Both the position numbers and the translations under genes were made by a program. 64,000 nt of DNA, taken from positions 4,125,623 through 4,189,622 of the forward strand of contig OY282444.1 in NCBI GenBank assembly GCA_958296125.1, read 5' to 3'. Below, in pieces: positions 8,053-25,387 of this stretch. Under the pieces are notes generated by a model, which saw nothing but the letters and a program-made list of their open reading frames with translations, ran no database searches and was not told where the DNA came from. Source of the DNA: an uncultured Poribacteria bacterium. Lineage in GTDB: Bacteria > Poribacteria > WGA-4E > PCPOR2b. Positions within the stretch are counted from its first letter, which is position 1. Every line of letters begins with the position of its first letter.

Positions 8053-9561
8053 ATGAAACAGCAGATTTTTTTTACCTGTTGTTTGCTTTTTATCTCAATT
8101 GGAGGTGCTGTAGGGCAATGGGTGAAAATAGATCCGGCGGAGATTGAGAAAATGATGCAGTTGCCTCAAGATAATTGGTTAAACCTAACACTGATGGGCA
8201 CGAAAATCGGATACGCCCATATCTATATGGAAAAATCAAGATATGAAGGTGAGGATGCCATTCGGGTGCGGGCTGACATGGTGATGGACCTCAAGCGCAC
8301 TGGCACCGGGTTGAGCCTCGCAACAACGCGAATCGCTTACGTCGGTATGGATCTGGTCCCTCGCTATTTTATTGCCACCTCCAATGAGACGGGCCAGGAG
8401 AAACGGGTTGAAGGACATGTCAGAAATGGTGTTGCTTACCTAGAGACAAGGCTTGCGGGAAAAACGACTCACACCCAGATGCCCATTTCAGCCGACACGA
8501 TTTTTGAACAGGTGATTGGTTACTTCCTGCTGCAACGTGGTATCCGGGTCGGTGATGCACATACCCTGCATGTATTCAATTTGGACCTCATGAAGCCCGT
8601 GAAAACGGTTGTCAGCGTTTTTCGAGAAGACCAGATCGAATTTGACAGCAAGATGGAGCCGGTCTACGTTATCAAGTGCACTATGGACATCATGGGCGGC
8701 CTCACGACAACCGAGTGGTTAGGACACGATGGCACAACTTATCGGATAGAGGTCGGGCTGATGGGGCTAAAAATGGTCTTGGCAAAGACCGATATGCAAA
8801 CAGCACTCGGTGAATCAGGAGAAGTTGACGTTATCCTGAATACAAAGATTTTTGCTCAAGGGAGCCCCCCAACTCCCCGTGCCCGTCGTTTCAAAGCGCG
8901 TTTGCAGTTGACCGAGGGGCAGTTGGACAAGGCAGTGATAAGCGATAGCCGTCAGAAACTGAACGTTGATAATGACTCACGCCATGGGGTGCTCGAAATC
9001 AACGTACCCGTAATTGATAGCGCGGAAACGCCGAATCTGCCGATACAAGATCGACATGGCAATGCGGAACTCGCGCCATTCTTGAAATCGACCGTGTATA
9101 TCCAAGCGGAGCACCCAATGATTTGGTCAAAAGCCGTTGAGGTGCTTGATGGGGAGCTGAATGCCTGGAAATCCGCCGAGAAACTGTGCCTATGGGTGTA
9201 TAAAAGCATCCATGACAAGAACCTGAAGGTTGGGTTTGGATCAGCATTACAGACGTTAGAATCGCTGGAGGGAGATTGCACTGAACATACGGTCCTAATG
9301 ATTGCGATGGCACGCTCCGTTGGTATCCCTGCGCGCGTTTGCGCGGGGCTTGTATTTCAGCATGACGCTTTCTACTACCATTTTTGGCCCGAAGTGTATG
9401 TGGGCGAGTGGGTAGCGATGGAGCCAACGCTTGGTCAAACTCAGGCAGATGCAAACCATATTCAACTCGCCGGCAGCAAGTTGGAATCTGACTCCATGCT
9501 GGAGTTCGGCGAAGGGGTGATACGGACACTGAATCAGCTTGAGATTGAGGTGCTTGAGTGA
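8053..9561 (+). CDS. Exported transglutaminase-like protein
   Basis: A 502-residue product. MKQQIFFTCCLLFISIGGAV, followed by GQ, is a cleavable signal peptide, so it acts outside the cytoplasm. The first ~340 residues are an unassigned beta-rich region. Residues ~380-480 are a transglutaminase-like (papain-fold) domain: GDCTEH with Cys409, FYYHFWPEVYVG with His443, then WVAMEPT. The third residue, usually Asp, is Glu457. Bacterial members may hydrolyse or cross-link peptide bonds; the specific activity is unknown. ATG 8053 is preferred over GTG 8011 because it opens the signal peptide and GAGGGA lies 11 nt upstream. It overlaps the C25 peptidase gene in GTGA, so the two are translationally coupled. 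Confidence 0.82.
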   Translation: MKQQIFFTCCLLFISIGGAVGQWVKIDPAEIEKMMQLPQDNWLNLTLMGTKIGYAHIYMEKSRYEGEDAIRVRADMVMDLKRTGTGLSLATTRIAYVGMDLVPRYFIATSNETGQEKRVEGHVRNGVAYLETRLAGKTTHTQMPISADTIFEQVIGYFLLQRGIRVGDAHTLHVFNLDLMKPVKTVVSVFREDQIEFDSKMEPVYVIKCTMDIMGGLTTTEWLGHDGTTYRIEVGLMGLKMVLAKTDMQTALGESGEVDVILNTKIFAQGSPPTPRARRFKARLQLTEGQLDKAVISDSRQKLNVDNDSRHGVLEINVPVIDSAETPNLPIQDRHGNAELAPFLKSTVYIQAEHPMIWSKAVEVLDGELNAWKSAEKLCLWVYKSIHDKNLKVGFGSALQTLESLEGDCTEHTVLMIAMARSVGIPARVCAGLVFQHDAFYYHFWPEVYVGEWVAMEPTLGQTQADANHIQLAGSKLESDSMLEFGEGVIRTLNQLEIEVLE

Positions 9562-12500
9562 AGTTTGGTATTCGTCAAGCAAACAAGTTCTGGTTTCGTC
9601 GCCCCGATGCTTTGATCGGGACTTACAAAACTGTGGATCCACGATTCCGTAAGCATTGGAACACCACAACAGGATCGGGATTTACATGTGCTTACCCCAA
9701 GGGCTTAGCGGTTCATTTACGTATCACGTTTTACACGCTTCTAATCTGCTGGTTTTCTGTCGTTACCGTCGCCGCCAAATCTCCGCTACAAATCATTCAA
9801 GCAAACACGGATAGTCTCCTTATCAAATTTGAGGCACCGACGCTGCAATTCAGTTCGCAAGCAATCAATGGACGTGCCTTTACGAGGATTTCTTTCACCG
9901 GGGCAACCCTCACGATGGATGTGGGATGCCCTAGCCTCCCTGTTTACCCACGATTAATTGGTATTCCCGTTGATGCCTCACCGCATGCGACCGTAATTGA
10001 TTCCCGGCTTGAAGTCCGCCAAACCGAGCGCATTATCCCCGCCCAACCACCGGGGCTCGCCACCCGTCAACCGACACCCATCATTGACATGGACTTTTAT
10101 CGACGGGATCGTCCCCAACCGATCAAGCTTGTCGAAGTTACGCCGATTGGGTTTATTCGTGGACAGCGGGTGGCACGCCTCCAGATTCAACCGATTCAGT
10201 ATAATCCTGCCAGATCGCAGCTCAAAATCTATCACGAACTGTTGATCCGCATCCACTTCAATGCGATCCCTGCCCCTCCCCGGTCCTATCGCGATTCAAA
10301 GCAACTTGCTGCTCCCTCCCGTGCCATGGAATCATCGCGGACTTTTGAGCAACTCTTTCAGGCAAAGCTGCTCAATTATAATCAGGCGAAGGCATGGCGA
10401 CGCTCACCTCAAGGTGTGCTGGCCGCCCCCACCGCGCAGCACGCTAGCGAACCTTCAAATAGATATAAAATCCTGATTAATCTAACGGGGATTTATAAAA
10501 TAACATATAACGAGTTCAGGCGCGCCGGTGCCAATCCGGCGCATATTGAGCTTGAGACCCTTAAAATGGAAAGCCGTGGACGGCGGGTCGGTCTTCACAT
10601 ATTTGATAGCGATGCAGACGGCCGGCTCGATCGGGACGACTCGATTGTGTTTTACGGGCAAGCACTTATCAGGGATAAGTTTACCGACACTAATGTGTAT
10701 TGGTTGAGTTGGGGCGGCGTTGGTCGTTCACAGGTCCTTGTTAGGGACGCTGCCCCAAAAACACCGAATGCGCCCACCCCGTTTGCTTTCAAGGAAACTG
10801 AACGCTTTGAACAGGACCGTAAGTATGACCGGCTGGTTGATGTGAAATCTGAGTTGGCGGACCACTATTTCTGGGAAAGCCTGACGGGTGGAGCAGACAG
10901 CAGGTTCAACCAGAAGGATTTCCCGATTCAACTGCCCCATGCAGCACCACAAGGGCAAATGAATCGGGATGCCGAGGTTCGTATTAAGTTTCAAGGGGCA
11001 TCGCGCGAAAGGAATGCCAGACATCAGGCGCGCATTCTGTTTAACGATGGACAACTTGGACCAGTTGCCGAGTGGCGGCAGCAAGCCGCACCACTCATTG
11101 AGCGTAAAATCGAACCGTCGCGATTTGTGCATCCGGAGGATACTGATGTTCTGAGGATTATATCCGAAGACCGTAATGGCACCCCGCCAGGCGAACCTGA
11201 TTTCTATCTGGATTGGTTTGAAATCGATTATTGGCACACCTTTGCGGCATCCGATGGAGTGCTTGCGTTTAACTCAGAAACCGAGCCAAGAAGGACCGGG
11301 CCCGTTCACTACCGCATAACAAACTTTCATCACCCCAATGTCGATGTGTATCAGATCCGCGACGGGAGTATCGTTGCAAAACTCACTAACGGTCGGGTTG
11401 AACGCAAGGACGCGACTTTCCAGCTGACCTTCGAGGATAATGTGACAGCACCAGTCGGCTACTTTGTGGTTGAGCGGGGGCACTATGCTCAGGTGGATCA
11501 TATTGTCCTTGCCAAGTCGTCGGTAATCAGCAATCCCGCAAACCAAGCGGATTACATCATTATCTCTCACAGTGACTTTATCAAGGGTATCCAGCCGCTC
11601 GCAGTCTTTCGGCGGTCACAGGGGTTATCCGTTATGGTCGTTGATGTTGAAGAGGTGTATGATCAGTTCAACCACGGGATTTTCAGCCCCCTCGCCATCC
11701 AGAGGTTTTTACATTACGCCTACACCCATTGGCGTGCCCCCAAGCCAACCTATGTCCTGTTAGTCGGCGATGCACACTATGACTATAAAGGGGCAACTGT
11801 CAAGCTATATCGGGGTGCATTTAACAGGGACTACGCCCTCTACCCAATCTACGTGCCGACGTTTCACGGTTGGGCTCCGGCGAGTGGGGAAACCGCGATG
11901 GATCACCGTTTTGTCACCATCAGCGGCGATGACCCTCTGCCGGATATGTTTATTGGGCGTTTACCAGTGCAGTTGACACAGGAGTTGAGTGATATGGTGC
12001 AAAAGATTATCGATTATGAGGCAAAGCGGCAGAACGGCTTATGGCAGGGCAGGTTGATGCAAGTCGCAGATAATGAGGTGGATAACGTCGGGGACGACAT
12101 TTTTGAGCAAACCCGCGAACAACTCGTTGAGGAACATATTCCCGTCGGCTACGACACCCGCAAGGTTTACCTGCGCCAAATTGGGAGTTCGGAGCGCACC
12201 ACCCAAGCTATCTTGACGACAATCGATGAGGGTGTCCTCGTCGTCGAATATTCGGGGCACGGTGGCACCCAAACGTGGGCGGATGAGGGCATTTTCCGCA
12301 TCGCGGATGCAGAGGGTTTGCGAAATGCACACCTACCGTTTATTATCACAACGACGTGTCTCAATGGACAATTTGATCAGCCCCTGCAATTTGGGCAACG
12401 CAGTTTAAGCGAACAATTCCTGATGGGAAGTGGCGGTGCCATCGGTGTCTTGAGCGCGACCCGTTTGACCTTTGCAACAGTCAATGCGGAGTTCGATAAA

Positions 12501-15500
12501 AATCTTTTTACCTCCATCTTCACCGTTACCCCTCCGACACTCGGCGCAATTATCGCTGAGGCAAAGACGCAGTTTATGATGACCGCTCCACAGCTGTGGA
12601 TTCCCGACGTAATGCAATACACCCTCTTCGGCGATCCGGCGACGCGTCTCGCTGTGCCAGCACTGGAGATTCAGGTCGAGTTGGAGCAAGTTGCAGTCGA
12701 TCCGAACAAAGAACTAATCATTCGCCACAACATTGTTGGGCAGCGTCAATTTTCACCAATTACAGGAGGAGTCGAGTTTCACAAGGTGCCCAATTTCAGC
12801 ACAGGGACAATGTCGGCAGTAGCACTGTTTGCGAACGACTTGGAGGATAATTCGCTCAACGATCTACCGGGACAAAAGACTGGTATCCAAGTATGGCAGG
12901 GTGAGTTTGGCGCGATTCGTATCCCCATTCCAGAAGATGTTGCCCCCGGACGGGGTATCGTTCGCCTCATGGCTTTCGATGATCAGCGGACAGCGGTGGG
13001 CGGCAAAAAGTTTTGGACGTATCAACCCGCCATCCTCGAAGTCCGCGAAGATCTTGATCCACACATCACCAACACATTAAATCTTTCCGCGTTGATAGTG
13101 GACAATGAAGGGCCTCCGGGACTAAAGTCAATAGAAGCGGTTTGGAGTGACACTGTGGAATCCAAGGAACGCACGGTGGCGATGATACCCCATCCTGCAC
13201 CGCCGGCCCCCGCGGTAAACGGTGGGCGGTGGTATAAGCTGCATACCGCCATTCCCCTGCCGAAAGGCGGCCAGACGGTGCAGTATCAAATCGTGGTGAC
13301 CGATCGCACCAACCATACCATCAGGACCGACAAAAAATCACTCAAGGTGCCCGAAGGGGCGAATATCGCCATCGCTTCGGCAGCAAGTGCTCCCCTCCGC
13401 TACACCTTTTCAAAGGAGAAGAAAGCCCACACACTTACCGCTAAACTTGTCAACGATGGTGGGCACAAAATCGATGTCGCCATCGAAGTTTGGTTCGCGG
13501 AAGGGGGGTTGGATCGGAATGGGGACGGTCAAATCGACCCTGAAGCAGATGTGCTTGGACGGGTCTGGGTCAGCACCGATGCGTGGCATTCAGGGGAGAC
13601 GCATCTTCAAGAAACGACAGCGACATTAATCCTCGCTGAACCGTTGTCCACCGGCTTTCATCAGATCTATGTCTTCGCGGATCCAGAATCGCCCGACGAT
13701 AATCACGAGGATGGGGTTATCGGCAAGCTCGACGAGCCCCGATCATTTGATAACAAAGGGTCCCAATCTTTCGTAGTCAACGAATTTACCTTGAAGGCGG
13801 ATGAAGAGCTCACCGCATTCAGTTTGGATCGGGTATTTGATGTTGTATTCCCAACTGGAGCTACCCCTGAACGCACAACAACGTTTTCCATCAATACAAT
13901 CGAACCGCCCATCTCATTTCAGCCCGACCTTCGTTTTGCCTCGCTGCCCCGTGTGCCAGCCTCGCGAAGCGGAGCATACCAAGTTGAATTGTATGCCGAG
14001 GCAGAACGATTGGTCCAGCCAGCGGGGCTCAAGTTCCGTTTCGATCTGGCTGCTTTGAAAGATTACTTGCAGACAAATTGGGGCCTGAATTCTGAAGCGG
14101 TGGAATTCAATGCCGCCCTACAAAGCGAAGTCGAAAATCTCGCGATCTATCAATGGCAAGCGGGTATTAACGCTTGGAAGTGGGTTCCCTCCGAGGTTGT
14201 GCGCGATCCTACCGGAAACTTGGTTTCGGAAAAATTTGCGACACCAACACAAGCCGAAAACGCAAGTGTTCAAAGATTACGAACCTCTTATATTCGCGTC
14301 AGTCCAAGCCTCACGCCGACAGGAAAATGGGCAATCCTTTTCCTCGATGCAGATCGGTATCGAGTCCTGCTTCAAAAAAAGGGTAAAAGTGAAACCGAAG
14401 AACTTAACCAAACCGGGCGCATCGATCAACCCCTCAGAGACGAGGGATTTGGGATCGAGTTAGAGATTCCTCGCCTTGGGGGAACAGACAGACTAGGCAG
14501 AAATCTGGTCTTTGAATTCGGCGATGTGTTGACTTTTGAAACTGATGTTGGTCCAAACGGGGGAAGTGTTGGTGTCTCTGCACTGCGGCACACCAACCGT
14601 GGCGAAGGTTCTGCACATGTAAACATCGGGCCGAAAAATCAAATCAGCGGCAAAGGGGGTCAGACCGACGTTAATCATTGGCTGATTTTCTTCCGAGATA
14701 GCGAACACTTTGAATTACGAAATGCACAAAACGAGTTCGCTTTCCATACGACAGGAAAGCCCGCTGTGGGGAAGGTTAACCAGCTTTTGATTCTTGACAA
14801 CCTCGGAATCGAGGTGCTTGTCACGGCCCCGATGGGTTCGGGATTCAAAGGGACCGACACCCCGTCTTTCGAGTTTGGAGACAAGTTCAAGTTCAGCCAG
14901 ACGATTGTGGGCATCATCTCCGCAAAGACCAGAGAACTCTCGACTTTTGCGCTAATGCAGAGTTCAGACTTAGAGCCTCCCAAAATCCAGCTCTGGGTGG
15001 GTGGGGAAATACCTAAGTCCGGCAGCGTCATCCCCCCCCGCCCTGAAATCGCCTTCCTCTTGACGGATGAAAACGGGGTGGATTTGGACCGCTTCAACCT
15101 AGCTGTAAGTAAGGACGGAGGGGCGTTTGAAACGATTAAGGACCTTGAGGTTAGCGGCGGGCAGATGACATCGGTTTCCATCCGCTACAAGCCAACGCTG
15201 TCTATCGGCCGCTATCGTTTCAGAATCAGAGCAAACGACCTCACCGGGAATAGATTTGGTGGCAAAGACGGATTTCGTGAATTTACCTTCTCTGTGGAGG
15301 AGCAACCCGATCTTGAACCGCCAACGGTTGAAATCCGTGTCAACGATGAGGTGCTGACGGATGGAGCGATTATACGTGAACAACCGAAAATTGAGATTCT
15401 GATCACTGACGAAAGCGAAATCAGTCCAACGACGATTCAATATGCCTTCGGTTCGACAAATAGCCCACTGTTTCCACTGCCTGAAGATCGCTACAAACTT

Positions 15501-15941
15501 CAGTTCGATGTCGCCCAACCAACACAAGCGCGGATTGCCTTTGAACCCGATCTGTCAAATGACGAATACCAACTCCAGGTCCTCGCCACGGATGCCAGTG
15601 AAAACACGGTCGAATCACAAATCTACTGTTTCCGCCTTGAGGAGCCTGTGTCCATCACTCACCTATTGAATGTGCCGAATCCCATGCGCACCCATACGGT
15701 TTTTACCTATAATCTTGCACAGGCGCCAGACCAAGTCACAGTCAAAATTTATACCGTGAGCGGGAGGCTCATCCGGACAATCGAAGATGCCTCAGCAAGA
15801 CGGGGCTACAACGAGACCGACTGGGATGCTCGTGATGAGAATAGGGAACGTTTGGCAAATGGTGTCTACTTCTACAGAGTTATCGTCGAAAAAGATGGGC
15901 ACAAAAGCGAAAAAATCGGACGACTGGCAATTTTGTGGTAA
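9558..15941 (+). CDS. Giant C25 (gingipain/PorU-like) cysteine peptidase with C-terminal sorting domain
   Basis: A 2127-residue exported protein. The hydrophobic export segment is LRITFYTLLICWFSVVTVAA at about residues 55-75, after an odd N-terminal stretch partly made of a dispersed repeat. Residues ~80-270 look like a C25 propeptide (GCPSLPVYPRLIGIPVDA). The caspase-like catalytic domain spans ~670-1060, with EYSGHGGT giving His901 and FIITTTCLNGQF giving Cys934. Later beta-sandwich domains include two similar ones, each beginning DLEPP (near 1805 and 1915). The last ~90 residues (VPNPMRTHTVFTYNL ... NGVYFYRVIV) are a FlgD-like, T9SS-type sorting domain. The start is uncertain: GTG 9558 overlaps the upstream stop. 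Peptidase or sortase roles are both possible; PorU of known T9SS is about half this length. Confidence 0.85.
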   Translation: MKFGIRQANKFWFRRPDALIGTYKTVDPRFRKHWNTTTGSGFTCAYPKGLAVHLRITFYTLLICWFSVVTVAAKSPLQIIQANTDSLLIKFEAPTLQFSSQAINGRAFTRISFTGATLTMDVGCPSLPVYPRLIGIPVDASPHATVIDSRLEVRQTERIIPAQPPGLATRQPTPIIDMDFYRRDRPQPIKLVEVTPIGFIRGQRVARLQIQPIQYNPARSQLKIYHELLIRIHFNAIPAPPRSYRDSKQLAAPSRAMESSRTFEQLFQAKLLNYNQAKAWRRSPQGVLAAPTAQHASEPSNRYKILINLTGIYKITYNEFRRAGANPAHIELETLKMESRGRRVGLHIFDSDADGRLDRDDSIVFYGQALIRDKFTDTNVYWLSWGGVGRSQVLVRDAAPKTPNAPTPFAFKETERFEQDRKYDRLVDVKSELADHYFWESLTGGADSRFNQKDFPIQLPHAAPQGQMNRDAEVRIKFQGASRERNARHQARILFNDGQLGPVAEWRQQAAPLIERKIEPSRFVHPEDTDVLRIISEDRNGTPPGEPDFYLDWFEIDYWHTFAASDGVLAFNSETEPRRTGPVHYRITNFHHPNVDVYQIRDGSIVAKLTNGRVERKDATFQLTFEDNVTAPVGYFVVERGHYAQVDHIVLAKSSVISNPANQADYIIISHSDFIKGIQPLAVFRRSQGLSVMVVDVEEVYDQFNHGIFSPLAIQRFLHYAYTHWRAPKPTYVLLVGDAHYDYKGATVKLYRGAFNRDYALYPIYVPTFHGWAPASGETAMDHRFVTISGDDPLPDMFIGRLPVQLTQELSDMVQKIIDYEAKRQNGLWQGRLMQVADNEVDNVGDDIFEQTREQLVEEHIPVGYDTRKVYLRQIGSSERTTQAILTTIDEGVLVVEYSGHGGTQTWADEGIFRIADAEGLRNAHLPFIITTTCLNGQFDQPLQFGQRSLSEQFLMGSGGAIGVLSATRLTFATVNAEFDKNLFTSIFTVTPPTLGAIIAEAKTQFMMTAPQLWIPDVMQYTLFGDPATRLAVPALEIQVELEQVAVDPNKELIIRHNIVGQRQFSPITGGVEFHKVPNFSTGTMSAVALFANDLEDNSLNDLPGQKTGIQVWQGEFGAIRIPIPEDVAPGRGIVRLMAFDDQRTAVGGKKFWTYQPAILEVREDLDPHITNTLNLSALIVDNEGPPGLKSIEAVWSDTVESKERTVAMIPHPAPPAPAVNGGRWYKLHTAIPLPKGGQTVQYQIVVTDRTNHTIRTDKKSLKVPEGANIAIASAASAPLRYTFSKEKKAHTLTAKLVNDGGHKIDVAIEVWFAEGGLDRNGDGQIDPEADVLGRVWVSTDAWHSGETHLQETTATLILAEPLSTGFHQIYVFADPESPDDNHEDGVIGKLDEPRSFDNKGSQSFVVNEFTLKADEELTAFSLDRVFDVVFPTGATPERTTTFSINTIEPPISFQPDLRFASLPRVPASRSGAYQVELYAEAERLVQPAGLKFRFDLAALKDYLQTNWGLNSEAVEFNAALQSEVENLAIYQWQAGINAWKWVPSEVVRDPTGNLVSEKFATPTQAENASVQRLRTSYIRVSPSLTPTGKWAILFLDADRYRVLLQKKGKSETEELNQTGRIDQPLRDEGFGIELEIPRLGGTDRLGRNLVFEFGDVLTFETDVGPNGGSVGVSALRHTNRGEGSAHVNIGPKNQISGKGGQTDVNHWLIFFRDSEHFELRNAQNEFAFHTTGKPAVGKVNQLLILDNLGIEVLVTAPMGSGFKGTDTPSFEFGDKFKFSQTIVGIISAKTRELSTFALMQSSDLEPPKIQLWVGGEIPKSGSVIPPRPEIAFLLTDENGVDLDRFNLAVSKDGGAFETIKDLEVSGGQMTSVSIRYKPTLSIGRYRFRIRANDLTGNRFGGKDGFREFTFSVEEQPDLEPPTVEIRVNDEVLTDGAIIREQPKIEILITDESEISPTTIQYAFGSTNSPLFPLPEDRYKLQFDVAQPTQARIAFEPDLSNDEYQLQVLATDASENTVESQIYCFRLEEPVSITHLLNVPNPMRTHTVFTYNLAQAPDQVTVKIYTVSGRLIRTIEDASARRGYNETDWDARDENRERLANGVYFYRVIVEKDGHKSEKIGRLAILW
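9603..9620 (+). repeat. Hairpin-forming dispersed repeat inside the C25 N-terminus
   Basis: Arms CCCGAT and ATCGGG enclose GCTTTG. The surrounding ~9590-9700 stretch encodes the odd, non-hydrophobic leader of the C25 frame. It reads like the CCCGAT-rich repeats near 3660, so it was probably inserted between the original start region and the signal peptide. Confidence 0.5.
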
Positions 15942-16060: not shown

Positions 16061-16162
16061 TTTATACAACTTGTGGTCAGGTCAAATGTCCTCAAATGCT
16101 CCGTTTATTCTGAACTATGAAAATATCTCCGAAGCCACAATCAATTGCCTCAAGGAGTAATT

Positions 16163-17140
16163 ATGAGTCACTTTCCGATTTATCGTCCGAGACGGCTTCG
16201 TGCTAACGAGAATCTCCGACGGCTTGTTCGAGAGACACAGCTTTCTGTTGATGACTTAATCTACCCGATGTTTGTCGTCCACGGGGTTGATGTTGCATCG
16301 GAAATCCCATCAATGCCAGGGTGTTACCAATACTCGGTCGATCGGCTCGTTAGGGCAGCGAAGGAGTTAGCGGCACTTCGCATTCCGGGGGCGCTCTTAT
16401 TCGGGATTCCAGAATCCAAAGATTCGATCGGCTCTGAAGCCTATGCTGACGATGGCATTATCCAGCGTGCCGTGCGAGCCATTAAGGATGCAGTCCCTGA
16501 GTTGCTCGTAATAACCGATGTTTGCCTCTGCGAATATACAGACCATGGGCATTGTGGTGTCATCCATGAGGGGGAGGTGCTGAACGACCCGACGTTGGAG
16601 TTGTTGATCAAAGAGAGCCTATCGCACGCCCACGCCGGCGCAGATGTCATCGCCCCATCCGACATGATGGACGGTAGAGTTGGGGCTATCCGCAAGGCGT
16701 TGGACGAAAACGGATACGATCAAACCCCCATCATGGCGTATTCCGCAAAATATGCGTCCGCGTTTTACGGTCCCTTCCGAGAGGCGGCAGAATCCGCCCC
16801 GCAGTTTGGCGATAGACGCGCGTATCAGATGGATCCACCGAATGTGGAGGAAGCGTTGCGGGAGGTTGCTCTGGACATTGAGGAGGGTGCCGATATCCTC
16901 ATGGTCAAACCTGCGCTGTCTTATCTTGATGTACTCAGTCAGGTAAAAGCGCGTTTTCAGGTGCCTGTTGCCGCATACAATGTGAGCGGGGAGTACGCGA
17001 TGATTAAAGCCGCTGGACAAAACGGTTGGATCGACGAAAAGCGGGTTGCCCTTGAGGTGCTCACTAGCATTAAGCGTGCAGGCGCAGATATAATCTTGAC
17101 CTACTTTGCAAAATCGGTTGTGGAATGGCTTACAGAATAA
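16163..17140 (+). CDS. hemB: Delta-aminolevulinic acid dehydratase (porphobilinogen synthase)
   Basis: This enzyme condenses two 5-aminolevulinate molecules to porphobilinogen, in the cytoplasm. Length is 325 aa, usual for the family. Zinc-type ligands are present in [14 protein letters not shown] (three Cys). The two active-site lysines lie in [15 protein letters not shown] and in [21 protein letters not shown]-like sequence (here [20 protein letters not shown]) is the substrate-lid region. ATG 16163 is chosen because AAGGAG lies 6 nt upstream. It is the first gene after the operator-like promoter and is followed 19 nt later by hemL. Confidence 0.97.
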
Positions 17141-17159
17141 ACGAAAGGAAGAAAACACC

Positions 17160-18443
17160 TTGAATAACGCCAAATCTGTGGCAGCATGGCAAAAATCACA
17201 GCAATTTATCCCCGGCGGTGTTAACAGTCCCGTAAGAAACTTTAATAAGGTTGGCGGTGGCCCGATCTTTATCCAGCGTGGCAAGGGATCGAGGGTCTAT
17301 GACATTGATGGCAACGAATATATCGATTACTTGGCATCATGGGGCCCACTAATTTTAGGGCATGCACATCCAAGCATCCTTGAGGCAATTCAAGGGGCAG
17401 CCGAGAACGGCACCAGCTTCGGGGCGGCAACGGCGTTAGAAACTGAACTTGCCGAACTAATTGTCAACGCTTGTCAGTCGATCGAGATTGTTCGATTGGT
17501 CAACTCCGGTACAGAAGCCACGATGAGTGCAATCCGTGTGGCACGCGGATATACTGGGCGTGATAAGGTTATCAAGATGGCGGGCTGCTATCACGGGCAT
17601 GTTGATTCACTCCTTGCCGAAGCGGGGTCCGGGGTCGCAACCTTCAGCGTTCCTGAGTGTATCGGCATTCCGACAGATTTTACGCGGCACACCCTGGTTG
17701 TGCCGTTCAATGATGCGGATGCCGTGCGGCGTGTGATTGAAGCCAATCCTGAGCAGATTGCGTGTCTGATTCTTGAACCGATTGCGGGCAATATGGGAGT
17801 AATTCCACCGCGTGATGGCTACCTCCAAGAATTGCGCGAGATTACCGCCGAACACGATATTCTTCTCATTTTCGACGAGGTAATTACCGGGTTTCGCGTG
17901 GCGTATGGCGGGGCACAGTCTCTCTATGGAGTTACGCCCGATATGACCTGCCTTGGCAAGATTATCGGTGGCGGAATGCCAGTCGGTGCTTACGGCGGAA
18001 AAAAAGAGATTATGGAAAACGTCGCCCCACTCGGCGGGGTCTACCAAGCAGGGACGCTATCGGGCAATCCGCTTGCAGTGTCCGCTGGAATCGCAATGCT
18101 GAAAGCTCTTTCCGAACCTAACGTCTATGATCGGCTTGAGGTTCGTGCTGCTGCCCTTGCAGAGGGCCTCGGCGCAGCGACCAAACGCCATAGAATCGAC
18201 GCTTGGCACAGCCGAGTTGGTTCAATGTTAATGTTCTATTTCACGGGTGAAACGGTCACTGATTACGAGGGCGTGCAGACTGCGGACACCGAACGCTACG
18301 CGCCTTATTTCTGGGGCTTGCTTGAGAAGGGGGTTTATGTCGCCCCATCTCAGTTTGAGACCGGCTTTGTTTCACTAGCGCACTCTGAGGCGGATATAGA
18401 CCAGACAATCGAGGCAGCCGATGAAGTGCTATCGGGGCTTTAA
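17160..18443 (+). CDS. hemL: Glutamate-1-semialdehyde 2,1-aminomutase
   Basis: A PLP enzyme making 5-aminolevulinate from glutamate-1-semialdehyde, the step after HemA in the C5 pathway. FIPGGVNSPVRNFNKVGG is the typical N-terminus. NSGTEATMSAIRVARGYTGR binds the cofactor phosphate. FDEVITGFR carries the PLP-pyridine Asp, and LGKIIGGGMPVGAYGG holds the Schiff-base lysine. From TTG 17160 it is 427 aa, the standard length; the site AGGAAG lies 8 nt upstream and the TTG opens NNAKSVAAW. A longer frame back into hemB is unlikely. Together with hemA downstream it shows that this organism uses the glutamyl-tRNA route. Confidence 0.96.
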   Translation: MNNAKSVAAWQKSQQFIPGGVNSPVRNFNKVGGGPIFIQRGKGSRVYDIDGNEYIDYLASWGPLILGHAHPSILEAIQGAAENGTSFGAATALETELAELIVNACQSIEIVRLVNSGTEATMSAIRVARGYTGRDKVIKMAGCYHGHVDSLLAEAGSGVATFSVPECIGIPTDFTRHTLVVPFNDADAVRRVIEANPEQIACLILEPIAGNMGVIPPRDGYLQELREITAEHDILLIFDEVITGFRVAYGGAQSLYGVTPDMTCLGKIIGGGMPVGAYGGKKEIMENVAPLGGVYQAGTLSGNPLAVSAGIAMLKALSEPNVYDRLEVRAAALAEGLGAATKRHRIDAWHSRVGSMLMFYFTGETVTDYEGVQTADTERYAPYFWGLLEKGVYVAPSQFETGFVSLAHSEADIDQTIEAADEVLSGL

Positions 18444-18499
18444 TGTAGGAAAGAGAGAATAAGTGGAGAAACAGGAAGGAGGACAACGTTTCACATCCG

Positions 18500-19486
18500 A
18501 TGTCAACACGAAGCCTTAACGAAATTTGCCATCTTATTGCAGATGATCTGCAAGCTGTCGAAAAAAAACTCAGTGAGAAAACCACGAGTCATTACGATTT
18601 CGTTGATCTTGCTGTCCGGCATGTGGTCGAGGGGGGTGGGAAGCGGCTGCGCCCGATCCTGTTGTTGCTCTCCGCGAAAGCATGTGGCTATCAAGGCGAG
18701 GATGCTCATACGCTTGCAGCAACTGTCGAGCTGATCCATGTCGCATCGCTGGTTCACGATGATGTCCTTGATGAGGCTCCTATCCGGCGGGGGCGTGCAA
18801 CGTTGCACTCTAAGTGGGGCAACAAAGTGGCGGTGCTCGTTGGGGATTATCTCCATGCCCGCGTGCTTTCGATGCTTGTCGCTCGGCGTGCCGATGACCT
18901 CGCGATGGCACTTCTCTCCGACGCAACACAGTCAATGTGTGAAGGAGAAGTTATCCATGCCTATAAAAATGGGGATTTCAATATTTCGCAGGACGACTAT
19001 CTAAAAATCATCGAACTGAAAACGGGGAAACTTATCACCGCTTCATGTGCGATGGGAGCGATACTTGGAACGCAGGACCCGCAAATCGTCCAAGCCTTGA
19101 CAGAATATGGAAAAGCTGTCGGTGCAGCATTTCAGATTATCGATGATCTCCTTGACCTCGTGGCGGCTGGGGAAAAATTGGGTAAGGAACCGTTCAACGA
19201 TTTGCATGATGGAAAACTGACATTTCCTATGATCTACGCACGCGAAGTCTGTACAACTGAAGAAAGGACAGAGCTCGAACGGGTTTTTAGCTTAGAAATG
19301 GACGAGGCTGGGGCAATAGAATGGATCGAATCCTTTCTTGAACGCTATCAGATTCAGGCACATTGCCGTGGGGTTGCTCAAGAATATGCCGACCACGCGA
19401 AATCTGCTTTGAACGTGCTCCCCGAAACGCCTGCGAGAGATGCCCTTGCTCAGCTTGCGGACTACGGGGTATTGAGAGATTGGTAA
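18500..19486 (+). CDS. Polyprenyl diphosphate synthase (long-chain, trans)
   Basis: This enzyme adds isopentenyl diphosphate units to an allylic primer to make the side chain of a respiratory quinone or a similar lipid. Both aspartate-rich motifs are present: VHDDVLDEAPIRRG and FQIIDDLLDLV. GGGKRLRPILLLLSAKACGY is the typical first conserved block. At 328 aa it matches heptaprenyl/octaprenyl synthases; chain length cannot be set from sequence. GGAGG lies 17 nt from the ATG, longer than normal. Its place between hemL and the siroheme-type gene suggests co-supply of quinone (or of the prenyl tail of heme O/A) with tetrapyrroles for respiration. Confidence 0.9.
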   Translation: MSTRSLNEICHLIADDLQAVEKKLSEKTTSHYDFVDLAVRHVVEGGGKRLRPILLLLSAKACGYQGEDAHTLAATVELIHVASLVHDDVLDEAPIRRGRATLHSKWGNKVAVLVGDYLHARVLSMLVARRADDLAMALLSDATQSMCEGEVIHAYKNGDFNISQDDYLKIIELKTGKLITASCAMGAILGTQDPQIVQALTEYGKAVGAAFQIIDDLLDLVAAGEKLGKEPFNDLHDGKLTFPMIYAREVCTTEERTELERVFSLEMDEAGAIEWIESFLERYQIQAHCRGVAQEYADHAKSALNVLPETPARDALAQLADYGVLRDW

Positions 19487-19535: not shown

Positions 19536-20708
19536 ATGTTCTATCCAGCGTATCTGAACCTCCAAAACCGCAAATGTCTCGTTGTGGGCGCAGGGCTTGT
19601 CGCCGAACGAAAGGTGCTCTCTCTACTTCGCAGCGGTGGGGATGTAACGCTAATCAGTCCCGAAGCGACGCAGGCCAACGCTGACTTAGCACGAAGCGAT
19701 CAGATAACCTGGCATAAACGTCAGTTTCGGTCCGGCGATACGGAAGGGATGTTCCTTGTCTGTGCGGCAACCGATCTGCCGGAGATTAACACACAGGTTT
19801 TCAAGGAGGCACACGAAGTATATGGGATCAACCTTGTCAACGTGGTTGATGTGATTCCTGAATGCACCTTCGCAGCGGCATCCGTGATTACGCACGAAGA
19901 CCTAACAATCAGTATCTCCACAAGTGGCAAAAGCCCAGGATTATCCAAACGTATCCGAGAATATCTTGAAGCAAAGTTCAGCGCGGCATCTCTTTACGAT
20001 GAACCGTCTGAGGCAAATTTCACCGCGGCTCTTAAAGGCCACGGACTTCCGTACCCGGTCTATTTTTTGTTGGAGAATCGTCATTGTGTCGTAATCAGCG
20101 ATTCGGAGAAGATGCGGGAGCCCCTCGCGCAAAGATTGGACCTCTTGATGCGTTGCGGTGCATCTGTCGATCGGATTGCCTTGAACCCTGACAATCTGGA
20201 ACCTGTGTCAGGCACCTTTCTTGTGTTAGTTGACGATTTTGAGTCCGAAAATTTTGCCTTCACCGCCCTCGGTCAGTGTCAACTAATTGAATTCATCAAC
20301 GCTCCAGAATTTGGCACATTTACCACGCCGCTTCTGGTGAGGGACGGAGATCTGATTATTAGCATTTCCGCCAATCACATTCAGAAAACCGCTAAAGGTG
20401 TAAACGAAGAAGGTAACATCAGGTCTGTGCAAACCCAACTTGCCCATCAGTTTGAAAATAACGGCTATGGGGAGTTTATCAGTTTTCTCGGTTCGCTACG
20501 ACCGACGGTGATGGAAGCTATCCCAACTCAGAAAGGTCGCCAGCGATACTTTGATCACCTCATCGATCAGGTTCAGGGAAATGAAGCGCGAAAGTGCTGC
20601 TTAGGTTTTGAAGCCCCTAACTGCGCGGTCAGATGTACTTTCAATATGATTCGTAGCGGGCAAGCCGACGCTGCTCGTCAATATGCCCTTCAACGGATTC
20701 GCGAATAA
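19536..20708 (+). CDS. Tandem-duplicated SirC/Met8-like protein (precorrin-2 dehydrogenase type)
   Basis: A 390-residue protein. Residues 1-150 match precorrin-2 dehydrogenase, which oxidises precorrin-2 to sirohydrochlorin with NAD: YPAYLNLQNRKCLVVGAG, then LVAERK, VNVVDVIPECTFAAASVI and LTISISTSGKSPGLSKRIRE. The usual helical C-terminal part is missing after KFSAASLYDE. From about residue 172 the pattern restarts: YPVYFLLENRHCVVISDSE, IEFINAPEFGTFTTPLLVRD, LIISISANHIQKTA, and YGEFISFLGSLRPTV. The second copy has lost the GxGxVAxRK nucleotide-binding motif but keeps the C-terminal dimerisation/chelation-type region. It therefore looks like one active NAD domain plus a degenerate partner. GAGGG lies upstream of the ATG. 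Confidence 0.82.
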   Translation: MFYPAYLNLQNRKCLVVGAGLVAERKVLSLLRSGGDVTLISPEATQANADLARSDQITWHKRQFRSGDTEGMFLVCAATDLPEINTQVFKEAHEVYGINLVNVVDVIPECTFAAASVITHEDLTISISTSGKSPGLSKRIREYLEAKFSAASLYDEPSEANFTAALKGHGLPYPVYFLLENRHCVVISDSEKMREPLAQRLDLLMRCGASVDRIALNPDNLEPVSGTFLVLVDDFESENFAFTALGQCQLIEFINAPEFGTFTTPLLVRDGDLIISISANHIQKTAKGVNEEGNIRSVQTQLAHQFENNGYGEFISFLGSLRPTVMEAIPTQKGRQRYFDHLIDQVQGNEARKCCLGFEAPNCAVRCTFNMIRSGQADAARQYALQRIRE

Positions 20709-20743: not shown

Positions 20744-21559
20744 ATGAATTCACTATTTTTTTATGCGCTTTTGTTGGTCTATTTGGTGGGGTGCATCCTT
20801 CACATTCTTTTCCTCACCACCGGAAATCGAAGGATTGCGAAATTCGCCTACTGGTTGACGATAGGCGGGTTTGCGCTGCACTCGTTGTTTATCCTGCTGC
20901 GCTGGCGGTATGTGGGACATCTAATGGCGTATTGGTATGACTCAACGTCCTTCCTAGCGTGGGCGATTATCTTGATTTATCTGTGCATCGCGCACCGGCC
21001 CCGCCTCCGCACGATCGGGGTTTTTGTTGTTCCCGCTGCTTTTATAGCCACCTTAGTCGCTTACACGCTACAAACTCAGGAAAATACTGCGATTCCCACT
21101 TATCTACAAAACTACTGGCTCATCGCCCATTCTGCCGTTATTTTTTTGGCTTACGCCGCATTCGTCGCCGCGTTTGGGTTTGGGCTGATGTACCTAATTG
21201 AAGAGAAGAAAATCCGTCAGAAGCAGCACATGCCCATCCACAATCTGCTGCCCGCGCTTGGCGGCTCTGACGAACTCGGTCATAAGTGTATCCTCGTTGG
21301 CGTAATTTTGATGACGATGGGCATTCTTATTGGGATACTTTGGACGCGGTATGTCCAAGAAGTCAAGTGGACATGGGTTGATTCAAAGGTTATTTTCACA
21401 ATCGCCACATGGCTTATTTATGTGCTACAACTCAGCATCCGTCAAGTTCTCGGTTGGCGCGGGCGCAAAACCGCCTATTCTGCAATCATCGGTTTTGCTG
21501 CGGTGTTGTTTACCTATGTAGGCGTTAATCTTTTTTTACCTAGCATACACGCATTTTAA
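20744..21559 (+). CDS. HemX/CcsA-family membrane protein
   Basis: A 271-residue integral membrane protein with about eight hydrophobic helices. The arrangement, and the late segment VKWTWVDSKVIFTIATWLIY, fit the cytochrome c assembly (CcsA/HemX) superfamily. The tryptophan-rich WWD heme-handling motif of true CcsA and CcmC/F is only partial here, as in HemX proteins encoded beside hemA. HemX in Bacillus lowers the amount of HemA; a similar role is inferred from its position, with hemA starting 3 nt after its stop. It is probably not part of a system II apparatus, because a full system I follows downstream. Confidence 0.75.
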   Translation: MNSLFFYALLLVYLVGCILHILFLTTGNRRIAKFAYWLTIGGFALHSLFILLRWRYVGHLMAYWYDSTSFLAWAIILIYLCIAHRPRLRTIGVFVVPAAFIATLVAYTLQTQENTAIPTYLQNYWLIAHSAVIFLAYAAFVAAFGFGLMYLIEEKKIRQKQHMPIHNLLPALGGSDELGHKCILVGVILMTMGILIGILWTRYVQEVKWTWVDSKVIFTIATWLIYVLQLSIRQVLGWRGRKTAYSAIIGFAAVLFTYVGVNLFLPSIHAF

Positions 21560-21562
21560 CAG

Positions 21563-22882
21563 ATGAACCAAATTGTCGTTGTCGGCACCAGTCATCATAT
21601 TGCACCGCTCGATTTTCGAGAACGGTTGTCGTTTTCTGAAAGCGAACTTACGGAAGCTTTCCAACTTTTAAGGGAACATCCCGATGTTCAGGAGGCAACG
21701 ATTCTCTCAACCTGTAACCGTGTCGAAGTCTATGCGGTGACCCACGGCAAAAACGGTTGTGCCACGCTTTCCGATTTTCTGTCAACTTATCATCAAATCG
21801 AGCCACAACAACTGGGCAAGTTTACATATAGCCATCAAAATCTTGATGTTATTCGTCATATCTTTGAAGTAACTGCAAGCCTTGATTCTATGATTGTCGG
21901 CGAGCCTCAGATTCTCGGTCAAGTGAAAGAGGCATATACCCAATCACTCGCTGCTGGAGCAACTGGTGATATTCTGAACCGCCTGCTTACCAAAGCGATA
22001 AGCGTCGGAAAGCGAGTCCGCACTGAGACCAATATCGCCGCCGGTGCAGTATCCATTAGTTACGCAGCGGTTGAACTTGCCAAGAGGATCTTTCAAAGTC
22101 TAGAAGATAAAACGGTTGCCATTATCGGTGCCGGCGAAATGAGTGAATTAACGGCGAAACACCTAGTGAAGAACAATGTTTCCCAAGTCATCGTGGCGAA
22201 CCGCACCTATCAGCGGGCAGTCGACATCGCCAAAAAATTCAGTGGGATTCCCTTGACATACGACGCTGACCTGAGTTTCCTTGTCGAAGCGGACATCGTG
22301 ATTAGCTCAACCGATGCCCCGCATTACCTAATCCACCGGCATTCGCTTGCAGAGATTATGAAAAAACGGAAGTATCGCTATATGTTTCTGATCGACATCG
22401 CGGTGCCTCGTGATATCGACCCTGAAGCGAGCAAAGTAGACAATGCCTTCCTGTATAACATCGATGATCTTGAGGCGGTGGTCGTCTCTAATCTCAAAGA
22501 TCGACACCAGGAAGCGGAGATTGCAGAGCAAATTGTCACAGAAGAGGTCGCAAAATTCCAGTCACAGTTGCAAGTCTTTGAAGTCAACCCAACGATCAAG
22601 GCACTCCATCAACAGTTTCAGCAGGTCGCTTCAAAAGAGTTAGGAATCTGTCTTGACAAAGCGCAGCTGACCCCTAAACAGCAGAAGATGGTTGAAGCCA
22701 TGACGCAATCGATTATCAAAAAATTGTTGCATCAACCGACGAAGCATTTGCGTGGGGTTGCCTTAAATCCCGATCTTACCGGGGCGGTCAATGATAGCAA
22801 TGACGAGCATGTGAAGTGTGTCCGCGCGCTGCAGGAGTTGTTTGATTTGGAAAATACGCGTGATAGGAATCTAAGAGGGTAA
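21563..22882 (+). CDS. hemA: Glutamyl-tRNA reductase
   Basis: This enzyme reduces glutamate on tRNA-Glu to glutamate-1-semialdehyde with NADPH, the first committed step of tetrapyrrole synthesis. VVGTSHHIAPLDFRERLSF and LSTCNRVEVYAV (catalytic Cys) mark the catalytic domain. MIVGEPQILGQVKEAY follows it. VAIIGAGEMSELTAKHLVKN is the NADPH-binding site. The C-terminal helical dimerisation domain ends with the DLENTRDRN region. Length 439 aa is typical. There is no clear ribosome site; with only 3 nt after the HemX-like gene, translation is probably coupled to it. Confidence 0.96.
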   Translation: MNQIVVVGTSHHIAPLDFRERLSFSESELTEAFQLLREHPDVQEATILSTCNRVEVYAVTHGKNGCATLSDFLSTYHQIEPQQLGKFTYSHQNLDVIRHIFEVTASLDSMIVGEPQILGQVKEAYTQSLAAGATGDILNRLLTKAISVGKRVRTETNIAAGAVSISYAAVELAKRIFQSLEDKTVAIIGAGEMSELTAKHLVKNNVSQVIVANRTYQRAVDIAKKFSGIPLTYDADLSFLVEADIVISSTDAPHYLIHRHSLAEIMKKRKYRYMFLIDIAVPRDIDPEASKVDNAFLYNIDDLEAVVVSNLKDRHQEAEIAEQIVTEEVAKFQSQLQVFEVNPTIKALHQQFQQVASKELGICLDKAQLTPKQQKMVEAMTQSIIKKLLHQPTKHLRGVALNPDLTGAVNDSNDEHVKCVRALQELFDLENTRDRNLRG

Positions 22883-22894
22883 GCGGTATACTGC

Positions 22895-23809
22895 ATGAAA
22901 CAAAATATCACCATCGGCACACGCGGCAGCCAACTTGCCCTTTGGCAAGCGGAATATGTGAGGAAACGTCTGAATCATCACTTTCCTGACCGATCGATTG
23001 AACGCAAAGTTATCAAAACAACAGGGGACAGAATTACAGACCGTTCTCTCGTCGGGCTCGGCAAGGGGGTCTTCACGAAAGAGATTGAGATTGCACTCTT
23101 GGACGAAACGATCGACCTTGCCGTGCACAGCATGAAAGACCTGCCGACCGAACTTCCCGATGGGTTGTGTATCGCGGCTCTTCCTGTGCGCGCTGACCCT
23201 CGCGATGTGCTAGTCACGCAGTCTGGCATGCTCCTTGATCAGCTCCCGAAAGGGGCGAAAATTGGAACGACAAGCCCACGTCGAAGAGCTCAACTTTTAC
23301 ACTTACGCCCTAATTTGCAGGTTGTGGATGTCCGCGGAAATCTCGACACGCGCCTTCGTAAACTGCATGAAACGGAACTTGATGGGATCATCCTTGCTGC
23401 CGCGGGAATTAAACGGTTGATTGGTGCGGAAATTATTACGGAGTATTTTGAGGTGGATCAGATGGTCCCTGCTGCCGGGCAAGGGGCATTGGGGATTGAA
23501 GTGCGCGAAGCTGATTTTGAAATGAGGACGTTGTTGGACGCGATCAACGATAGCCATAGTGAAATTGAGGTGCTTGCGGAGAGGGGTGTGTTGGGTGAAT
23601 TGGGTGGTGGGTGTCAAGTTCCCATTGGTGTCAACGCACGGTTGAAGGCGAATAGGCTTCAGCTGATTGCTACTGTTTGCAGCCCCGACGGAAAGCATCG
23701 CATCCTTGAGCGGCTATCGGGCGATTCGGGGGGTGCCCAAGAGTTGGGGATCAACCTTGCGACACAGCTGATTCAGAGGGGCGCGCACAAACTTCAAAGT
23801 GAAACGTAA
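22895..23809 (+). CDS. hemC: Hydroxymethylbilane synthase (porphobilinogen deaminase)
   Basis: This enzyme polymerises four porphobilinogens into hydroxymethylbilane. The N-terminus ITIGTRGSQLALWQAEYV is diagnostic. KGVFTKEIEIALLDETIDLA, VHSMKDLPTELPDGL, and GTTSPRRRAQL are substrate-binding blocks. LGELGGGCQVPIG holds the cysteine (Cys240) that carries the dipyrromethane cofactor. Length 304 aa is standard. It lies 12 nt after hemA. Confidence 0.96.
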   Translation: MKQNITIGTRGSQLALWQAEYVRKRLNHHFPDRSIERKVIKTTGDRITDRSLVGLGKGVFTKEIEIALLDETIDLAVHSMKDLPTELPDGLCIAALPVRADPRDVLVTQSGMLLDQLPKGAKIGTTSPRRRAQLLHLRPNLQVVDVRGNLDTRLRKLHETELDGIILAAAGIKRLIGAEIITEYFEVDQMVPAAGQGALGIEVREADFEMRTLLDAINDSHSEIEVLAERGVLGELGGGCQVPIGVNARLKANRLQLIATVCSPDGKHRILERLSGDSGGAQELGINLATQLIQRGAHKLQSET

Positions 23810-23848
23810 ACAGATCTTATGTTTGACACATTACCTAAACCGTGAATC

Positions 23849-25387
23849 ATGGATGCCATAAATGGTAAAGTCTACCTTGTTGGGGCAGGCCCAGGCGATC
23901 AGAAACTGATTACGCTCAAAGGGATTGAGTGCCTTCAACGTGCAGATGTTGTAATCTATGACCTGCTCATCAATGTCAAATTGCTTGAGCACTGTCCTCC
24001 CCATACCGAAAAAATCTATGGTGGAAAAATGACAGGTGAGCAGGAGCAACGCCAAGCCGAAATCGATAATCTGATGATTCGGCACGCGAGAGCGGGCAAG
24101 ACGGTTGTCCGACTCAAAGGCGGCGATCCGTTTATATTTGGGAGAGGCGGAGAAGAGGCACTGACACTTGTGGGTGCCGATATTGATTTTGAAATTGTGC
24201 CCGGTATTACTTCAGCAATCGCTGCCCCGGCGTATGCAGGTATTCCTTTGACGCATCGGAATTACTCGTCCTCCGTTGCGTTTGTCACAGGGCATTCAGC
24301 GGCGTTGAAAGCGGATTCGACAATCCGTTGGGAGCAGCTCGCTACAGGTGTGGACACGCTGGTGGTTCTCATGGGGGTGGGTCATTTACGTGAGATAGCG
24401 GCGCGTCTGATTCAACATGGACGTTCACCTGATACACCGATTTCTCTCGTTCATTGGGGGACGACACCGCGACAAAAAACGCTTGAGGGCACTCTCGCAG
24501 ATATTGTTCAAAAGGTAGAGGTTGCTAATTTTCGCAATCCGGCGGCAATCGTTGTCGGTGAAGTCAACACTTTGCGCGAACAGTTGCGCTGGTTTGATCG
24601 AAACCCGCTCTTTGGTCGCCGGATTATTGTCACGCGTGCCCGGGCGCAAGCCAGCGACTTCGCGGAATGTCTCGAAGCTTATGGTGCCGAAGTCATCCAA
24701 TTCCCGACGATTGAAACCAGGCCAATTCCCAACAACGTTAGGTTGGGCAGGGCAATCGATCAACTTGCGACATATAACTGGGTCATTTTTACTAGCGTCA
24801 ATGCGGTGGAGTATTTCTATCGTCACCTGCGGGAAAATGGCAAAGATGCCCGATCCCTCGGCACCGCTCGTATCTGTGCAGTTGGCCCAAAAACTGTAGC
24901 GGCATTAGATCAGATTGGGATTCGCGCGGATTACGTCCCATTGCAATCTCGCGGTGCTGTCGTTGCGGCTGAATTAGAAAGGGTGGCGGGCCAAAAGATT
25001 CTGCTGCCGCGTGCTTCGATCGCCGCTGATGATTTACCTAACGGCTTACGAGATAGAGGCGCGATTGTTAACGCGATCCCAATCTATGAGACCGTCAAAG
25101 CCAGTGCAGCGGACCGTGAGGCACTCGAAGGGGCCCTACACAACGGACAAATCGACATGGTGACATTTACAAGTTCGTCAACTGTTACCAACTTTCTGGA
25201 GATGTTCGATTTATGCCCGCCCGCTGCCCTGCTCGACCGGGTCCACATTGCGGTCATTGGACCATCAACCGCCGCAACTGTGAAAGCGCATAGACTGACG
25301 GTAGACATCGTTGCGAAGAAAGCCTCTGTGGAAGCACTCGCAGAAGAGATTGTCAAGTTCTATACACGAAAGGAAAAACGAGTATGA
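23849..25387 (+). CDS. cobA-hemD: Fused uroporphyrinogen-III C-methyltransferase / uroporphyrinogen-III synthase
   Basis: A 512-residue two-domain enzyme. Residues 1-245 are a SAM-dependent methyltransferase (VYLVGAGPGDQKLITLKGIE; VVRLKGGDPFIFGRGGEEA; EIVPGITSAIAAPAYAGIPL) that makes precorrin-2. Residues ~255-505 are uroporphyrinogen-III synthase (GRRIIVTRARAQASDFAECL; WVIFTSVNAVEYFYRHL; MVTFTSSSTVTNFLEMF), which closes the ring. The fusion couples ring closure with C2/C7 methylation, the entry to siroheme and related products. It is well known in Clostridia and delta-proteobacteria. The stop overlaps the ccmE start in ATGA, tying tetrapyrrole genes to cytochrome maturation. Confidence 0.94.
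   Translation: MDAINGKVYLVGAGPGDQKLITLKGIECLQRADVVIYDLLINVKLLEHCPPHTEKIYGGKMTGEQEQRQAEIDNLMIRHARAGKTVVRLKGGDPFIFGRGGEEALTLVGADIDFEIVPGITSAIAAPAYAGIPLTHRNYSSSVAFVTGHSAALKADSTIRWEQLATGVDTLVVLMGVGHLREIAARLIQHGRSPDTPISLVHWGTTPRQKTLEGTLADIVQKVEVANFRNPAAIVVGEVNTLREQLRWFDRNPLFGRRIIVTRARAQASDFAECLEAYGAEVIQFPTIETRPIPNNVRLGRAIDQLATYNWVIFTSVNAVEYFYRHLRENGKDARSLGTARICAVGPKTVAALDQIGIRADYVPLQSRGAVVAAELERVAGQKILLPRASIAADDLPNGLRDRGAIVNAIPIYETVKASAADREALEGALHNGQIDMVTFTSSSTVTNFLEMFDLCPPAALLDRVHIAVIGPSTAATVKAHRLTVDIVAKKASVEALAEEIVKFYTRKEKRV

Follow-up and report, generated by a model that had tools for sequence, protein, structure and literature searches.

The gene at positions 19536-20708 (forward strand) of the window, by which we mean the whole 64,000-nucleotide stretch of Poribacteria DNA analysed here, encodes two SirC/Met8-like copies in tandem. 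Siroheme-making enzymes are normally pairs of identical chains, and we consider it probable (at roughly 0.68) that in this protein such a CysG-B/Met8/SirC homodimer of the siroheme branch has been fused into one chain with one active site, which would probably serve as both dehydrogenase and chelatase. A preliminary description of the DNA had proposed the tandem at exactly these coordinates, and the proposal was borne out by a comparison of the profiles of the two halves (E 2.4e-11) and by a family search, which found the double architecture in 70 of the 73 genomes of one Poribacteria order. Judged from its sequence, the protein is a genuine variant of a known enzyme family, of long standing and well conserved. 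The same description knew of no described protein with the layout, and the literature that we searched, with incomplete coverage, contained no paper on a tandem SirC or on siroheme in Poribacteria.

The tandem gene and its locus

The gene starts with ATG and has a clean frame of 390 amino acids. It belongs to a series of tetrapyrrole genes (hemB, hemL, polyprenyl synthase, tandem SirC, ccsB/hemX-like, hemA, hemC, cobA-hemD), and synteny shows that its position in this heme operon is conserved across the order. The product of the cobA-hemD fusion makes precorrin-2. The features of the locus and of the protein are as follows, all on the forward strand.

16145-19486 (+): hemB, hemL and polyprenyl synthase, co-directional, upstream of the tandem gene (Pfam; order conserved across the Poribacteria order)
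19536-20708 (+): whole tandem gene, a predicted SirC/CysG-B pseudo-dimer, 390 aa plus stop (open reading frame; 70/73 order genomes; 63-row alignment)
19536-19874 (+): Rossmann domain 1, residues 1-113, nucleotide site GAGLVAERK (18-26) intact, catalytic Asp105 (PF13241; D105 and N102 in 63/63 rows)
19875-19985 (+): dimerisation domain 1, residues 114-150, tetrapyrrole-site residues T129, G131, S133, P134, R141 (PF14824; conservation; roles of the CysG residues from PMC7018833)
19986-20042 (+): linker, residues 151-169, in place of the missing helical domain 1, low model confidence (pLDDT <50 at 157-168)
20043-20324 (+): Rossmann domain 2, residues 170-263, glycine-rich nucleotide motif lost (hhalign; residue mapping to CysG)
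20325-20456 (+): dimerisation domain 2, residues 264-307, tetrapyrrole-binding loop lost (CysG S128, G130, S132, P133; residue mapping)
20457-20582 (+): helical domain, residues 308-349, with G319, R322 and R335 invariant and F339 (F in 60/63) (PF10414; CysG G159, R162, R175, W179)
20583-20648 (+): four-cysteine insertion, residues 350-371, with C354, C355, C363, C367 (each 63/63; absent from single-copy SirC and CysG)
20649-20705 (+): C-terminal helix of the helical domain, residues 372-390 (aligned to the C-terminus of single-copy SirC)
20744-25387 (+): ccsB/hemX-like gene, hemA, hemC and cobA-hemD fusion, downstream of the tandem gene (Pfam, NCBIfam; synteny)

Elsewhere in the window, positions 9558-15941 encode a 2127-aa protein with a C25 (gingipain-type) peptidase domain and its propeptide, whose C-terminus is FlgD_ig / type IX secretion-like, and a 2245-aa open reading frame at 33047-39784 has a C-terminal FlgD_ig / Por secretion tail as its sole recognised part. 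Two 911-aa open reading frames, suspected to be paralogs from their equal length, proved on comparison not to be.

Both halves are SirC/CysG-B homologues

In order to compare the two halves we built profiles on an alignment of 63 orthologs. The half-1 profile matched the half-2 profile over 123 columns (hhalign, with the E value given above), and the single-copy SirC of sister orders matched the whole of half 2 over 187 columns (hhalign, E 2.2e-18). Searched against the PDB, the 63-row profile of half 2 found CysG (E 3e-7), while phmmer with the single half-2 sequence found no match there; the profile was needed because a single half-2 sequence is too diverged. Direct alignment of half against half within one sequence exceeded 200 shuffles in most of 12 orthologs. 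It gave z 4.6 in the window's protein (0/200 shuffles as high) and was weak in some orthologs (L041: z 2.5, 4/200 as high), and it is therefore the profile evidence that settles the repeat.

Domain searches gave the same division of parts. NAD_binding_7 (PF13241) matched residues 6-113 (E 3.8e-28, 98.5 bits against a cut-off of 22.1) and gave no Pfam match to half 2 alone. Sirohm_synth_M (PF14824) matched residues 122-146 (E 4e-7, 29.8 bits, cut-off 25), a domain preceded by the catalytic D105. CysG_dimeriser (PF10414) was found only at 310-344 (E 5.5e-4), where its 20.1 bits lie just below the cut-off of 23; the ortholog L042 passes this cut-off with 26.2 bits. The helical domain thus follows copy 2 only, and not the copy with the intact Rossmann domain. 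The whole protein scored 126.6 bits (cut-off 62.3) with TIGR01470 (cysG_Nterm), and three NCBIfam siroheme models each matched it in two stretches. No class II chelatase domain (CbiX, CbiK or Ferrochelatase) was found in it by Pfam. As had been proposed, copy 1 keeps its nucleotide site (VGAGLVAERK, residues 17-26) and lacks the helical part, and copy 2 has lost the nucleotide site and keeps the helical part. The same order of motifs had also been ascribed to both copies; this is correct for the Rossmann and dimerisation parts and incorrect for the helical part, which is present once.

Structure prediction agreed with the profiles. The AlphaFold2 model of the whole chain (pLDDT 86, pTM 0.84) had CysG, SirC and Met8 as its top 31 Foldseek matches in the PDB, and supports the pseudo-dimer reading of the preliminary description. 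Half 2 modelled alone gave lower values (pLDDT 76, pTM 0.64), a difference that would follow if it is packed against half 1 in the full chain. Its fold, which it had been said beforehand would refute the tandem if unrelated to SirC, resembled this family only: all 12 Foldseek matches at E<=0.001 were CysG, SirC or Met8. The profile comparison, conservation and dN/dS led us to reject both a chance repeat and a pseudogene; that the layout is kept in 70/73 order genomes excludes an artefact of sequencing or decay. Taken together, these sequence comparisons confirm that both halves are homologous to SirC/CysG, with a repeat beyond chance.

A probable single active site per molecule

The CysG-B dimer is domain-swapped, and domain swapping between chains is the rule of the family (PMC7018833). 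Each active site takes Rossmann and dimerisation residues from one chain and helical residues from the other, so that the dimer has two symmetric sites, yet no crystal structure shows ligand in more than one of them (PMC7018833). We mapped the residues of the CysG site onto the tandem protein. CysG N101, D104, S128, G130, S132, P133 and R140 correspond to N102, D105, T129, G131, S133, P134 and R141 of half 1, all invariant in the 63 rows, and D104 is essential for both activities of CysG (PMC7018833). In half 2, G20 is replaced by E/A/D/K, A24 by P/E/Q, N101 by E252 (63/63) and D104 by D/N, and the places of S128, G130, S132, P133 and R140 hold A/T/S/P, N/S and others, or mixed residues. On the helical side, R162 and R175 are kept as R322 and R335 and the hinge G159 as G319 (63/63 each), and W179 is F in 60/63 rows; K166 is not kept (L/M), which counts against the reading, though it is also missing from the sister SirCs. 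The residues R260-D262 of CysG-A, which help the site, have no counterpart in the tandem chain, a further point against.

What has been lost, helical domain 1 on the one hand and the nucleotide and tetrapyrrole residues of copy 2 on the other, together makes up one of the two sites of a dimer, and from this we infer a pseudo-dimer with one active site. What is retained, Rossmann and dimerisation domains 1 together with the helical domain, makes up the second, so both halves of the chain would be needed for it. The supposition that one half supplies catalysis and the other a surface for dimerisation or metal chelation is therefore not quite right when the residue mapping is read on the CysG structures (PMC7018833). 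By analogy with the CysG crystal structures, the two dimerisation domains would pair within the chain and Rossmann domain 1 would sit over the C-terminal helical domain to give one complete site, leaving the second void with its helical domain deleted and its nucleotide motif gone. The single site would oxidise precorrin-2 from the neighbouring CobA-HemD to sirohydrochlorin with NAD+, and insertion of Fe2+ to complete siroheme would probably take place there too.

The pairing of Rossmann domain 1 with the helical domain within one chain is drawn from analogy, and the chains could instead pair between molecules, half 1 with the half 2 or the half 1 of another chain, giving two ordinary sites per dimer and a fusion that changes little. 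Swapping between chains would follow the family rule (PMC7018833), and the model shows a flexible linker at 157-168, which permits both arrangements. We nevertheless regard this as unlikely, since the single chain is modelled with a high pTM, above that of half 2 alone, and what has been lost is exactly the pair of parts that make up one site, in keeping with a single site per pseudo-dimer. Far less credible is that half 2 is a decaying, functionless duplicate carried as a mere passenger. Half 2 does evolve faster than half 1, with a mean identity of 0.50-0.54 in Rossmann domain 2 and dimerisation domain 2 compared with 0.76 in half 1, and it has lost its nucleotide motif. However, every pair tested gave half 2 a dN/dS below 0.4 (about 0.17-0.38, as against about 0.05-0.13 for half 1). 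The sole helical domain of the chain lies in half 2, where R322, R335, G319 and the four cysteines are invariant, and all sampled families of the order have kept this half. Every part of the protein is under purifying selection, half 1 most strongly and half 2 less tightly, and the constraint on half 2 largely refutes the notion of a passenger.

Distribution and origin of the fusion

Among 10 genomes of the other orders of the class, six had a single-copy SirC (an open frame of 205-241 aa), one (G062) had a SirC-HemA fusion and three gave no match, as did the two remaining genomes of the phylum. A tblastn search of 72,556 plasmid records returned none that covers 80% of the tandem query. The gene was missing from three order genomes, whose assemblies are 88-95% complete. 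In G034 (95% complete), in accordance with expectation, neither the tandem gene nor a siroheme-type nitrite/sulfite reductase (NIR_SIR) was found, possibly through joint loss of the siroheme branch; in G004 and G033, contrary to expectation, NIR_SIR was present and the tandem gene was not detected.

The order HemL-PPS-SirC is common to the sister loci L037 and L039, which places the fused gene in the ancestral position. In the tree, the half-1 sequences group together and so do the half-2 sequences (100/100 support for each), which is consistent with one early fusion in the order. Half 2 lies on a long branch; it may be a duplicate of half 1 or may descend from another SirC. The protein of G062 (L040:2421-4079, reverse strand), 553 aa, in which SirC is fused to glutamyl-tRNA reductase (HemA), is a second SirC fusion in the class; it differs from the tandem protein in its partner and in having one SirC copy.

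Which enzyme inserts the iron

Met8p and CysG are bifunctional, combining dehydrogenase and ferrochelatase. Separate sirohydrochlorin chelatases were sought in the 73 order genomes, and neither CbiX/SirB (PF01903; 0/73 after discounting one match inside the HemH gene of G023) nor CbiK (PF06180; 0/73) was found. NIR_SIR reductases were present in 71/73, including the window's own genome, where the gene (L079:1335-3770, forward strand) encodes an 812-aa nitrite/sulfite-reductase-like protein with a C-terminal TusA/YedF-like sulfurtransferase domain (about residues 742-810). The presence of NIR_SIR without CbiX/SirB or CbiK suggests that the tandem protein inserts iron too, and from the enzymes missing in these draft genomes it is probably a bifunctional dehydrogenase and chelatase.

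Sister genomes offer a comparison. Four of family f7 (G066-G069) have single-copy SirC, CbiX and NIR_SIR and lack the B12 gene CbiD, which is absent in G066-G070 and present in G061-G063. With CbiD missing, the CbiX of these f7 genomes is probably a siroheme chelatase, and the idea that all sister CbiX genes serve B12 was rejected for G066-G069; it stands only for G061-G063, whose chelatase may serve B12 given the presence of CbiD. Single-copy bacterial SirCs without an adjoining CbiX are known (L100), so the lack of CbiX alone does not explain the fusion.

Alternatively, the tandem protein could be a precorrin-2 dehydrogenase only, with iron being inserted into both sirohydrochlorin and the heme precursor by the order's divergent four-cysteine HemH. 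HemH is present in 71/73 order genomes and has a divergent N-terminus, and in B. megaterium SirC is described as the dehydrogenase and SirB as a distinct chelatase (PMC4063343). The conserved D105, being essential in CysG for both activities (PMC7018833), does not discriminate between the two readings. The objection lies with the substrate. No HemH is known to us to act on sirohydrochlorin. We judge this alternative rather unlikely and prefer a bifunctional tandem protein, with HemH perhaps as a helper.

Comparison with known chelatases and the four-cysteine insertion

The tandem protein shares with SirC, Met8p and CysG-B (class III chelatase fold; PDB 3dfz, 1kyq, 1pjq, 6p5x) the Rossmann, dimerisation and helical domains, the catalytic Asp (D105, CysG D104), the Ser/Thr, Pro and Arg of the tetrapyrrole site, and a CobA adjoining in the genome. 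It differs from them in having two copies per chain, the first without a helical domain and the second without a nucleotide site, in the one active site expected per molecule, and in the four-cysteine insertion in the helical domain; unlike CysG, it is not joined to a methyltransferase. Among class II chelatases, the small symmetric homodimer CbiX-S is thought to have given rise to the asymmetric two-domain chains of CbiX-L, CbiK and HemH (PMC4063343). The path from homodimer to asymmetric fused chain is the same, but the fold is unrelated, and the tandem protein with its CysG-B fold would be the class III counterpart.

Neither the insertion nor the absence of a separate sirohydrochlorin chelatase had figured in the preliminary description. 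The insertion separates the helical domain from the last helix and has an invariant CCx7Cx3C (C354, C355, C363, C367). A survey of ferrochelatases gave CX(1,11)CX(1,11)C as the pattern of those with [2Fe-2S] clusters (HemH/PpfC/CpfC, with an XCCX internal motif), an adjacent CC being typical of internal insertions (PMC8529089). CCx7Cx3C fits this pattern, including the adjacent pair, and in both cases four clustered cysteines lie in an insertion; the fold and the substrate differ, and a cluster in the tandem protein is putative. From the motif, an iron-sulfur cluster or a metal ion is the probable ligand of this insertion, which adjoins the helical domain. A zinc site or a redox switch may be alternatives, and any role that we might assign to it, in iron delivery, sensing or structure, would be guesswork.

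A fuller reading, which we put forward tentatively and regard as somewhat doubtful, is that of a single-site class III pseudo-dimer, a siroheme synthase whose helical domain has gained an iron-sulfur cluster and which, as a self-contained dehydrogenase and ferrochelatase, replaced CbiX/SirB. If true, both the step from dimer to fused chain and the [2Fe-2S] acquisition of class II ferrochelatases would have been repeated in an unrelated fold, with the fusion as counterpart to the one thought to have yielded class II chelatases from a small homodimer. How one CysG site performs both dehydrogenation and iron insertion is debated, and a natural enzyme seemingly with a single site would allow a direct test of the need for the second, with the invariant four-cysteine insertion as a place to look for the route of iron into a class III chelatase.

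Four cysteines were also observed in the HemH of the order (L075:307-1341, reverse strand, equivalent to G000:C1 near 152863-153669, and 20 orthologs), so that both chelatase candidates of the order carry a CC-type four-cysteine motif. Those of HemH lie just after the first strand, as PGCC x5-7 C x5-6 C in most, and are invariant in the order sequences compared. Cysteine motifs of ferrochelatases have been described in an internal insertion or at the C-terminus only (PMC8529089), and from its sequence the N-terminal site of the HemH motif looks like a third location.
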